Origin: Candidatus Gastranaerophilales bacterium
GTDB taxonomy: Bacteria > Cyanobacteriota > Vampirovibrionia > Gastranaerophilales > Gastranaerophilaceae
Assembly (NCBI GenBank): GCA_944325905.1
Contig: CALVBY010000005.1
Span: 1-46,231, forward strand
Direction: 5' to 3'
Length of the DNA stretch: 46,231 bases
Shown: piece after piece, positions 35,944 through 39,923 of the stretch
Position numbering within the stretch: the first letter of the stretch is position 1
Layout: every line of letters starts with the position of its first letter
Position numbers and translations under genes: made by a program
Notes under the pieces: generated by a model
Database searches by the model: none
What the model saw: the letters and a program-made list of their open reading frames with translations, nothing else
What the model was told of the DNA's origin: nothing

Positions 35944-36480
35944 ATGAACACAGTTGATGTAATAGCAAATGTTAAAAGTACAATAAGATCAGTAAATGAT
36001 TTTCCAAAACCCGGCATAGTATTCAGAGATATAACAACCGCTCTTAAAGAGCCTGAAGTATTGCGTGAAATGATAGATTACCTTTGCGATCAATTCAAAG
36101 ACGTAAAAATAGATTACATAGCAGGAATTGAAAGCCGCGGGTTTATATTTGGTATGCCAATGGCATATAAGTTAAATGCGGGATTTGTACCTATCAGAAA
36201 ACCTAATAAACTTCCGGCTGAAACTTTAAGCCAAGAATATTCATTGGAATATGGTACAGATAAAATTGAAATCCACACTGATGCAATCAAAGAAGGCGAT
36301 AATGTATTGATAGTTGACGATTTGCTTGCAACCGGCGGAACTGCTGAAGCTGCTTGCAAACTTATCAAAAAAACAGGCGGTAACCTTGTAGGTATTGCGT
36401 TTTTAATCGAATTAAAAGATCTAAACGGTAGAGCAAAATTCGATAAAGACTTAAAAGTTGTATCTATGCTTCAGTACTAA
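35944..36480 (+). CDS. apt: Adenine phosphoribosyltransferase
   Basis: Salvages adenine with PRPP to give AMP. The N-terminus has the family pattern DFPKPGIVFRDITT, and the PRPP-binding loop is VLIVDDLLATGGTA near residues 119-132. Its 178 residues are typical. It starts 11 bp after the glycosyltransferase with AGGAGAA before the ATG, so it is in that transcript. Its TAA overlaps the stop codon of the opposing prepilin gene in the four bases CTAA. Confidence 0.97.
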   Translation: MNTVDVIANVKSTIRSVNDFPKPGIVFRDITTALKEPEVLREMIDYLCDQFKDVKIDYIAGIESRGFIFGMPMAYKLNAGFVPIRKPNKLPAETLSQEYSLEYGTDKIEIHTDAIKEGDNVLIVDDLLATGGTAEAACKLIKKTGGNLVGIAFLIELKDLNGRAKFDKDLKVVSMLQY

Positions 36481-37286
36481 TCATACCAATACTTAGCATT
36501 ATTCCAACGTCTTATCCATTCACCACAAGTCAAACCATTTGTGTTTTTCTCAACCAAATTAAGTTTATCACAATAAGATTTTACATATTCATCGGTAGCA
36601 TTGTAATACAAAGGGAAAATCCCCTTTGTTGTTACGGTGAAAGCAAAATGATCTAAACCAAGACGATTTAATTCATTGATACTTATAAATGCATACAAAG
36701 TTCCACAGTTATTTTTATATACAATTTCCTCACCAGTAGAATCTACATTTTGTGTATAACTACAACCATTATGAACAACCGCGTAAAAAAGAACCACCCC
36801 ATTGTTAAAACGTTCTTTGACGTACGTATTCAAATTACCTATATTGTTATAACGACTTTCTCCGGTTAAAGAAACAATCTCCACATCATTTTGGATGCAA
36901 CCTTTTTTATAATAACACTTTTCAGAAACTTTCATGTATTTTGACAAAATTTCCGCCATATCTTGAGGGTCATTCAACTTCCAGTTTTCAGGGGCACCAT
37001 TTTCTGCAACTGCCATTGTAAAAGCATTTGCTAATGTTGAATAAACCCACTTGAAACGTGTAACTGTCTGTTTTTCCTGATATTTCAAAATTAAATTAGG
37101 AATTGTCAATGCCGCAACGATTCCGACTATTGCTAAAGTTATCAAAACTTCTGCTAATGTAAAACCTGTTTTTGATTTATAATTCGCCATATTTGAATTA
37201 TAAATTTTATCAATTACACTGTCAAGTTCTTTGCTATATCTACTTAAAGGAGTTGCCCCCCCCCTGTTCTTCATGAATTTTTTCAT
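36477..37286 (-). CDS. Type IV prepilin-like protein with two possible starts
   Basis: A pilin/pseudopilin. The motif G|FTLAEVLITLAIVGIVAALT has the peptidase cleavage site after Gly, Glu at mature position 5 and the hydrophobic helix. The long start (37286) has a perfect SD (AAAGGAGG) and promoter and adds 32 residues (MKKFMKNRGGATPLSRYSK and onward). This stretch contains nine consecutive G in codons 8-11. An inner ATG at 37190 gives 237 residues with a normal short leader (MANYKSKTG). It has no SD, but a consensus promoter ends 6 nt before it. Both forms are in frame now. The globular part has several Cys (CYYKKGC and others) that may form disulfides. Confidence 0.85.
   Translation of the reverse strand: MKKFMKNRGGATPLSRYSKELDSVIDKIYNSNMANYKSKTGFTLAEVLITLAIVGIVAALTIPNLILKYQEKQTVTRFKWVYSTLANAFTMAVAENGAPENWKLNDPQDMAEILSKYMKVSEKCYYKKGCIQNDVEIVSLTGESRYNNIGNLNTYVKERFNNGVVLFYAVVHNGCSYTQNVDSTGEEIVYKNNCGTLYAFISINELNRLGLDHFAFTVTTKGIFPLYYNATDEYVKSYCDKLNLVEKNTNGLTCGEWIRRWNNAKYWYD
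37197..37225 (-). promoter_or_regulatory. Consensus promoter inside the prepilin gene, for a leaderless short form
   Basis: Minus-strand TTGACA (37220-37225), exactly 17 bp, TATAAT (37197-37202), both perfect consensus, then 6 nt and the inner ATG (37190). The same bases encode residues about 21-30 of the long form. Confidence 0.75.
37256..37264. repeat. Homopolymer tract (nine C on +, nine G on the coding strand)
   Basis: Nine identical G/C bases near the start of the long prepilin form. The window is AT-rich, so such a tract is unexpected. Gain or loss of one base would end the long form at 13-15 codons. Confidence 0.9.
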
Positions 37287-37307
37287 GCAATCCTCCTTTG
37301 ATAATGA

Positions 37308-37336
37308 ATTGTATCATTTCATAATGTTTTTTGCAA
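37308..37336 (-). promoter_or_regulatory. Promoter of the long prepilin form
   Basis: Minus-strand TTGCAA (37331-37336), 17 bp, TACAAT (37308-37313), followed by the SD AAAGGAGG and ATG 37286. The -35 is a palindrome shared with the nagA promoter. Confidence 0.6.
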
Positions 37337-37359
37337 CATCTTAGTATTTGGAATATAAT
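37331..37359 (+). promoter_or_regulatory. nagA promoter (leaderless)
   Basis: TTGCAA (37331-37336), 17 bp, TATAAT (37354-37359), then 6 nt and the ATG at 37366. No Shine-Dalgarno is present. Confidence 0.72.
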
Positions 37360-37365
37360 TGCAAT

Positions 37366-38274
37366 ATGAAAACTAAATTAATTATAGAGCAACATTTTCA
37401 CGGAGCGTTCGGCATAAATTTTAATAATTGTAATGTCGAAGATGTTTTGGAACTTTCAAAAGAAATTGTCAAATACGGTATTGGCGGTATATTTCCGACA
37501 CTTGCAACTGATAGCGTCGAGAATATAAAAAAACAAATCAGCATAATAAAAGAAGCTGCACAAAAACAAACCTCTGATATGGCAAAAATTTTTGGAGTTC
37601 ACCTTGAGGGAATATTTCTTAACCCTGAGAAAAAAGGTATTCACGACGAAAGATTCTTTCTAAAACCTACAATTGAAAACTATAAACTCATTGAAGATGA
37701 TTTTATAAAAATCTTGACTTACGCACCGGAGCTTGACGAAAATTATGCACTTGCAAAATATCTATTGACTAAAGATGTAAAAATCCAAGCTGGACACTGT
37801 CTTGGAGGAGATCTTTCCTATTGCGACGGTACAACACACCTTTTCAATGCAATGTCAGGTATCGTCCAACGCGGAACATCTACCGCATTAACTGCATTAA
37901 CAGACGATAGTATTTACACAGAAATCATTGCCGATGGAGTGCATATTTCAGATTCAATCATAAGGCTTGTTTTCAAAGCAAAGCCGCTTGACAAAATATT
38001 ATTAATTTCTGACTGCTTACCTATTACCAAAAGCGGATTGGAAGAAATGGTGTTTGAGGGCGAGACAATATATTTTGACGGTGAAAAGGCAACCTCCAAG
38101 GATGGAACTTTGGCAGGAAGCACCAAATTATTGCCGGATATAATTAAGCGCCTTGGTATAATGGGGCTTTTTAACCCTCAATTAATTGATAATACATATA
38201 AATATCATAATATAGAACTTGGTGGCGAAGTTGAGTGGGATGAACATTTCAACATAGTTGGAGTAAAACTTTAA
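37366..38274 (+). CDS. nagA: N-acetylglucosamine-6-phosphate deacetylase
   Basis: Removes acetate from GlcNAc-6-phosphate to give glucosamine-6-phosphate. Family blocks are [16 protein letters not shown] (metal-binding Glu; usually HLEGPF), the QAGHC histidine, [19 protein letters not shown] with the catalytic Asp, and DGTLAGS. At 302 residues it is clearly shorter than the usual 370-390, missing most of the N-terminal small beta domain. The active site is complete, so it is probably functional. The ATG at 37366 is set by the promoter. It shares one base with the ilvD start (TAATG). It acts after MurQ in muropeptide recycling. Confidence 0.9.
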
Positions 38275-39923
38275 TGAAAAGTGATAATATTAAAAAAGGA
38301 ATAGCCAGAACCCCGCACAGGGGACTTTTAATGGCTACAGGCGTAAGCAAAAAAAATATGGATGCACCATTTATCGGGATAGCAAGCTCTTTTTCAGATT
38401 TGGTTCCTGGTCATATTGGAATGCGCGATTTGGAACGTCAAATTGAAAAAGGTATTCACACAGCAGGCGGACAAGCATTCATTTTTGGAGTGCCTGCAAT
38501 ATGCGACGGAATTGCAATGGGCCATAGCGGAATGAGATATTCTCTACCGTCCAGAGATTTGATAGCAGATTGTGTAGAAAGTGTTGCAGCAGCTCATCAG
38601 CTTGATGGGTTGGTACTGCTTTCAAATTGCGATAAAATCACGCCCGGAATGCTTATTGCAGCGTTGAGATTAAACATCCCGACAATTATAGTAACCGCAG
38701 GGCCAATGCTTGATGGTATTTGCAGAGGAGAAAACAAATTAACCATGGTTACAGGCTCATTTGAAGCCGTCGGACGCTACAGGAAAGGTGAAATCACCGA
38801 GGAACATCTTTTGGCTATGGAAGAAAATTCTTGCCCGTCAGCTGGTGCATGCCAAGGGATGTACACAGCAAACACTATGGCCTGTTTGACAGAGGTCTTA
38901 GGTATGAGTTTGCCATACTGTTCATCTGCATCTGCTGTTTCTTCACAAAAAAGAAGAATAGCGTTTGAAAGCGGTATGCAGATTTTGGAACTTGTAAAAC
39001 ATAATATAAGACCTTCTGACATAATTACAAAAGATTCTTTGACAAATGCAATTGTTGCAGATTTAGCCTTAGGCGGTTCAACAAATACTTTCCTGCATCT
39101 TTTGGCAATCGCTAACGCAGGAGGATTGGATATTACAATTGATGATTTTGACAAATTAAGCCGTAAAATTCACCAAATTGTAAAAATAAATCCGTCATCA
39201 TCGCTTACTATGACTGATTTTCATAATGCAGGAGGCATCCCAGCCGTTATGAAATCTTTAAAAGATTTATTAAAAAATACAAAAACGTGCAGAGGCCTAT
39301 CTATAAAAGAAATCATTAAAAATGCTTGGCGTGAGGAATCTATTATCCCTGATTATGACCAATCATCATACACTCAAGCAGGGTTGGGCGTTTTATATGG
39401 CAATCTTGCAAAAGACGGGTGCGTAACGAAAATTTCCGGAATCGCGCCTGAATGCTACCATTTTGAAGGCGTTGCAAGAACTTTTGACAGCGAAGAAGAC
39501 GCTATGAAGGCACTTGAAACTGACAAAATAAAAGCAGGAGATGTTATAATAATACGCTATGAAGGCCCTGTAGGCGGTCCTGGTATGCGTGAGATGCTTG
39601 CGCCGACGTCTTTGCTTGTCGGAAAAGGATTAGGCAAAACTTGCGCTCTAATAACCGACGGAAGATTTTCCGGCGCCACAAGAGGAATTTGTATAGGTCA
39701 CGTCTGCCCTGAAGCTGCAAAAGGCGGTGTAATTGCTTTGGTTCAAGATGGAGATAAAATTAAAATTGATATTCCATCTCGTTCAATAGAGCTGCTCGTT
39801 GATGAAAAAATCCTTGAAGAACGCAGAAAAAATCTTAAACCGTTTGAGCTTAAAGTCAAATCAGGCTACCTTGCAAAATACGCCAAAAACGTCGGAGATG
39901 CCTCACATGGGGCGCTGGTGTAA
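38274..39923 (+). CDS. ilvD: Dihydroxy-acid dehydratase
   Basis: Dehydrates dihydroxy acids to 2-keto acids in valine, leucine and isoleucine synthesis, using an iron-sulfur cluster. Conserved blocks with the ligand cysteines are [32 protein letters not shown] and [31 protein letters not shown] and [10 protein letters not shown] near the C-terminus are also typical. The 549 residues are slightly short of the E. coli enzyme but normal for cyanobacteria. It is translationally coupled to nagA by a 1-base overlap, an unusual partner. No other ilv gene is in the window. Confidence 0.97.

Follow-up and report, generated by a model that had tools for sequence, protein, structure and literature searches.

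The window, the whole 46,231-nucleotide stretch that we analysed, is contig C5 of a 1.6-Mb metagenome-assembled genome from the Gastranaerophilales, a non-photosynthetic cyanobacterial sister lineage; the organism is known from metagenome assemblies only, and 15 congeners of the window genome are listed. At the locus, a prepilin ORF (PF07963 match) runs leftward from 37286 and a nagA-like gene runs rightward from 37366, with apt flanking the pilin on the side away from nagA and no regulator gene linked. The nagA product scored 187 bits against TIGR00221, under the cut-off of 226, and matched profile positions 58–316. The 302-residue protein is without the N-terminal ~57 profile positions, keeps the motifs HFHG, HLEG, GHC, THLFNAM and SDCLP, and is apparently a barrel-only form in this family. 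Because nagA abuts ilvD and the two are probably co-transcribed, the amino-sugar recycling that the earlier note placed on the rightward side is only part of that unit. The features are as follows.

36477–37190, minus strand: prepilin, from the predicted leaderless start MANYKSKTGFTLAEVLITL...; PF07963
37197–37225, minus strand: predicted prepilin promoter P2, TTGACA-17-TATAAT-N6-ATG; 12/12 consensus, leaderless
37240–37255, minus strand: post-tract element CAACTCCTTTAAGTAG, which can pair with the Shine-Dalgarno (SD) sequence and has stops in two of three frames
37256–37264, minus strand: run of nine Gs within the leader ORF, whose ATG is at 37286; at this locus the run is in frame with the prepilin
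37292–37299, minus strand: SD sequence AAAGGAGG preceding the leader ORF; 15 tract loci of the genome share the layout
37308–37316, minus strand: extended -10, TGA-TACAAT, of the predicted leftward promoter P1; left -10 5/6 and TG 2/2 columns invariant in 5 species
37331–37336, both strands: shared -35 hexamer TTGCAA, palindromic; invariant in 6 genus members
37337–37353, no strand assigned: right spacer CATCTTAGTATTTGGAA = CATNNTARTATTTGGAA, 17 bp, with 14/17 positions invariant; candidate nagA operator, or candidate for tuning the nagA promoter
37354–37359, plus strand: nagA -10, TATAAT, ending 6 nt before the nagA ATG
37366–38274, plus strand: nagA-like gene, 302 aa, N-acetylglucosamine-6-phosphate deacetylase type, truncated form
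38274–39923: ilvD, abutting nagA downstream

Two predicted promoters share a -35 hexamer

The observation in the earlier note that TTGCAA (37331–37336) is its own reverse complement and stands exactly 17 bp from a -10 on either side, TATAAT (37354–37359, plus strand) and TACAAT (37313–37308, minus strand), is right in every coordinate. A TG at 37316–37315, one base before the leftward TACAAT, was absent from that description. The two opposed sigma70-type -35/-10 sets have overlapping polymerase footprints, are both conserved as sequence elements (conservation being all that is meant here), and have predicted starts near 37366 (plus) and 37301–37302 (minus), ~65 bp apart.

We counted spacings in a 436-kb sample of genome stretches (L157–L176). 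TTGCAA was the most enriched hexamer 17 bp before TATAAT (9 versus ~1.25 expected), and TTGCAA-17-TATAAT occurs 3–19 times per congener versus 0–3 times in reversed controls, with TTGACA as the other standard -35. Any special status for the palindrome is ruled out, since TTGCAA belongs to the pair of standard -35 hexamers of the genome and genus and a palindromic -35 is therefore ordinary here. A promoter of this kind needs only a -10 on the opposite side to turn two-way.

Sixteen TTGCAA-17-TATAAT sites were found genome-wide, versus none in the reversed-pattern control. Three of them carry a -10 matching at least 5/6 on the other side at 16–18 bp (~0.6 expected; ~3.7% by chance for any one such promoter), and the nagA site is the only one of the 16 that combines TGN with an SD-led gene behind it; for any single position, the chance of TGN together with a -10 matching 5/6 or better is 0.07%. 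The strict two-sided pattern has four occurrences in 191 genomes of the family (control, 0), three at nagA and one in another genus (G019, L203); this last copy lies between co-directional genes, so it is probably due to chance. As a sequence pattern, the shared divergent arrangement is more than chance.

Conservation of the core and its limits

We read orthologues within the genus (L031, L034, L035, L038 and L032) and in other genera (L043, L046, L049, L052, L080, L083 and L097). The window and L031, L034, L035 and L038 all keep TTGCAA and both 17-bp spacers, with a left -10 of TACAAT or TATAAT that always comes with TGN. Among these five pilin-leader species the invariant columns number 6/6 in TTGCAA, 6/6 in the right -10, 5/6 in the left -10, 2/2 in the TG, 14/17 in the right spacer, 7/17 in the left spacer and 1/6 in the six bases before the ATG, compared with 13/84 (15.5%) of nagA fourfold sites (about 13–16% overall). 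The alignment contains a sharply bounded conserved block with diverged flanks, and the 29-bp core has 0–3 differences, versus 42–72% fourfold divergence for most species pairs (11% for L035/L038). Right-spacer conservation exceeds that of fourfold sites with P about 2e-9, a yardstick that may overstate selection because L034 and L038 have an identical core and even an identical, neutral-looking N6, though their nagA genes differ by 17%, so that exchange of the region between species is possible. The close relative L032, from which the pilin is gone, keeps TTGCAA and the nagA -10, but its left side reads TTTGTA, which departs from consensus by one base more; this is a single case.

These comparisons bear on the view that the nagA promoter alone is real and that AT-rich DNA simply happens to supply the leftward -10. 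A -10-like hexamer at 16–18 bp on the other side would be expected at ~3.7% of TTGCAA promoter sites, and the left spacer is poorly conserved (7/17). However, each of the five species with the pilin retains the left -10 (5/6) and its TG (2/2) at a spacing of exactly 17 bp, most other tract loci (described below) have a P1-type promoter at the same distance from the SD, and the damaged left -10 occurs in the sole pilin-less relative. We regard a chance match as very improbable and proceed with a predicted promoter on each strand.

The right spacer is more conserved than a plain promoter spacer needs, and its retention in pilin-less L032 suggests that its role probably lies with nagA, the most obvious guess being a binding site for a regulator. 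Both properties would suit an interpretation in which the conserved block is chiefly the operator of a regulator for nagA, perhaps also for P1, and promoter sharing is incidental. Yet the genome holds no clear second copy of the spacer (the best others have 2 mismatches), a candidate regulon sharing it gave 57 hits versus 36 in the reversed control, barely above, and no symmetric operator is kept: the left half of a candidate dyad around the box, ATGTT-N6-AACAT, is not conserved in relatives. We consider an operator in this sense improbable as the main content of the block, and prefer two promoters sharing a -35.

In the other genera (L043, L046, L049, L052, L080, L083 and L097) the same gene pair is found and the promoters still overlap, with separate -35s. 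The leftward -35 (TTGAAA, TTGCAA or TTGTAA) lies ~10 bp from the nagA -10, nagA's own -35 is weaker, and in sister genera the -35s of the two promoters are offset by ~7–8 bp. The symmetry in relatives is thus kept in five close species, and exact sharing is lost in neighbouring genera. Exact sharing of the putative -35 is a trait of one clade, which means that it is not needed for pairing these genes, and the offset in sister genera indicates that reuse of the P1 -35 may be secondary and not original.

A G-tract leader ORF downstream of P1

The earlier note assigned the two promoters to nagA and the prepilin. The nagA assignment stands; the other does not, since, judging by its position, predicted P1 drives an SD-led G-tract mini-ORF and not simply the prepilin, which has the putative promoter P2. 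P2 sits inside the prepilin ORF, ~83 bp downstream of P1, and its start gives the usual short pilin leader MANYKSKTGFTLAE. A strong P1 (score at least 11.5) stands just upstream of the SD at 9 of the 15 tract loci, compared with 7 of 117 other SD genes, and this score is reached by 0.2% of shuffles. The -35 is of the TTGC type at 10 of the 15 tract loci, making TTGCAA at P1 a family habit.

The leader layout (SD, mini-ORF, G9–G13, post-tract element, P2, prepilin) recurs at ~20 loci of the genome (L135, L151, L178–L202) and in congeners (L207–L236). A poly-C version (L177, L183, L188, L189, L194) encodes the leader MKxIDTKAVQIVAPPPGA..., with the C run in sense, ahead of prepilins or at contig edges, and at L224 (G003) this G-tract leader stands before membrane proteins that we call acyltransferase-like on sequence alone, so that the leader is not restricted to pilins. 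Between L001 and L031, nagA is 95% identical and promoter and leader are close, with pilin bodies beside nagA only ~42% identical; the pilin bodies at the nagA site seem to have been exchanged.

With one leader taken for each post-tract element (n = 21), the SD is predicted to pair more strongly with its own element, at an average of -9.07 kcal/mol, than with the elements of other loci, at -7.36 kcal/mol (sd 0.34; 0/1000 swaps, and 4/1000 for the window genome only), the swaps being not fully independent because related loci share SD and post-tract element. In 45 tract leaders that are followed by a prepilin motif, we counted bases from the start codon through the tract, and the remainder modulo 3 was 0 in 25, 1 in 19 and 2 in 1; 1 mod 3 is the state that reads into the pilin in the window, and short leaders end directly after the tract (..GGGQLL, then a stop). 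Homopolymer tracts are found in the 5' coding region at many surface genes, and their lengths of 9–13 vary between loci and species, the level at which they were compared. From these features the leader looks phase-variable or attenuated; we found no literature on a phase-variable or attenuated pilin leader of this kind.

In Neisseria, phase variation arises from G tracts in 5' coding sequence, where the frame decides read-through. The leaders resemble that system in placing a run of Gs close to where an ORF for a surface appendage begins, and differ from it in that the tract lies in a short upstream ORF, the SD is predicted to pair with the post-tract element, and a further, leaderless promoter is predicted for the pilin downstream. 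Tentatively, and at somewhat less than even odds, we propose a dispersed Gastranaerophilales device comprising P1 with its TTGC-type -35 and extended -10, an SD mini-ORF with a slippage-prone G run, an anti-SD element that could mask the SD of the mini-ORF and has stops in two frames, the consensus leaderless P2 and exchangeable pilins. Tract length would set pilin translation from the P1 transcript, and cassettes would enter operons and hand their -35 to neighbours.

A predicted leaderless nagA and its probable promoter history

Because TATAAT ends 6 nt before the nagA ATG, we predict a leaderless nagA transcript. This spacing of 6 nt persists from genus to genus even as the six bases themselves change, and the start has no SD. 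Among 572 candidate starts in the 436-kb sample, TATAAT ends exactly 6 nt before the ATG 21 times, whereas the distances on either side have about 1–2 cases each and, almost without exception, between 0 and 3. Another, wider peak at 22–24 nt fits SD-led genes. The 6-nt excess points to a sizeable set of leaderless genes in the lineage, in which such genes are a minority. In Deinococcus-Thermus, the -10 of comparable leaderless genes ends ~6–7 bp before the start codon and the mRNA starts at or next to the AUG (PMC12340547). The nagA gene has the same -10-to-start distance, but differs in its consensus TATAAT and recognisable -35, its phylum, and the minority status of leaderless genes.

Of the 80 searchable loci, 63 have murE immediately ahead of nagA on the same strand, and one of these 63 has TATAAT-N6-ATG at nagA; the motif is present at all 12 loci where a G-tract pilin leader or cassette faces nagA between murE and nagA. 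The gene order, with neighbours named from their protein sequences, is penicillin-binding-protein-like gene, murE, reversed pilin, nagA in L031, L034, L038, L043, L046, L052, L080 and L083, and murE and nagA abut in L033 and L036. In the simplest history, the cassette inserted into an operon of murE and nagA, and nagA recruited a new promoter; the direction (insertion and not loss) is one that we infer.

Interpretation and comparison with known systems

The best explanation, to which we give a probability of about 0.72, is that two overlapping housekeeping-type promoters use one -35 hexamer from opposite strands. A leaderless nagA-ilvD mRNA would start rightward, and the leftward promoter would be P1 of a repeated pilin-leader cassette, upstream of the pilin's leaderless P2. 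The cassette would have landed reversed between murE and nagA, cutting nagA from its operon promoter, and nagA would have gained a -10 placed 17 bp away from the P1 -35 of the cassette, a hexamer that would work in both directions since TTGCAA is palindromic. This account is built on sequence, spacing, conservation, the association of the nagA promoter with the cassette and the genome-wide leaderless peak; promoter activity and the size of any interference are predictions from them. On this account, the shared promoter element probably arose incidentally, when a pilin gene came to sit in an operon. The box likely takes one polymerase at a time, and frequent initiation on one side may therefore damp the opposite side.

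The earlier note went further, proposing that amino-sugar recycling and pilin expression might be mutually exclusive. Exclusion is possible at the level of DNA occupancy, where established structure and PMC12825309 support the point that two holoenzymes do not sit on one hexamer simultaneously, but is unsupported at the level of expression. With P2 present, pilin supply would not depend on the shared box, and a block of P1 would hit the leader-derived transcript only. Five E. coli bidirectional promoters had basal activity too low for polymerase competition, with interference only when one direction was strongly activated (PMC12825309). A selected switch would fit the exact sharing kept in five species and the near-consensus -10s, which favour occupancy, and a regulator acting unequally on overlapping divergent promoters can make switches (PMC4207663). 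In addition to P2 and the E. coli precedent, however, sister genera with the same gene pair lack exact sharing, pilin bodies are ~40% identical between near relatives under a constant promoter, so that there is no fixed pilin partner, and no regulator gene is linked at the locus. We judge a selected switch distinctly unlikely, and favour the by-product of cassette insertion described above.

Two known arrangements resemble the shared box. In the Pc/Pr pair of plasmid pLS20, the proposed elements are interchanged, each promoter's -10 lying on the other's -35, and the regulator RcoLS20 works the switch (PMC4207663); there too opposed core promoters lie on the same DNA and two polymerases cannot bind together, whereas here a single palindromic -35 serves both and a regulator is seen at pLS20 only. 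The bidirectional promoters of Warman and Grainger share a -10, with start sites 7–25 bp apart (PMC12825309, PMC10268837). DNA symmetry likewise lets one element serve both directions, and one binding event excludes the other, but here the -35 is shared, the -10s are separate and the predicted starts are ~65 bp apart, which sets the locus outside bidirectional promoters sensu Warman. A literature search for an identical shared -35, in which the minus sign of "-35" was not searchable and subscription journals lay outside the search, returned no relevant paper.

The locus illustrates a simple route by which a displaced gene may regain a promoter, since a common palindromic -35 is already half a promoter in the opposite direction, and it makes interference from exact -35 sharing testable. 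It also points to a much larger, apparently undescribed family of G-tract pilin leaders in a widespread, largely uncultured gut lineage. If the device that we propose tentatively is real, tract length would give these bacteria a phase-variable pilin repertoire.
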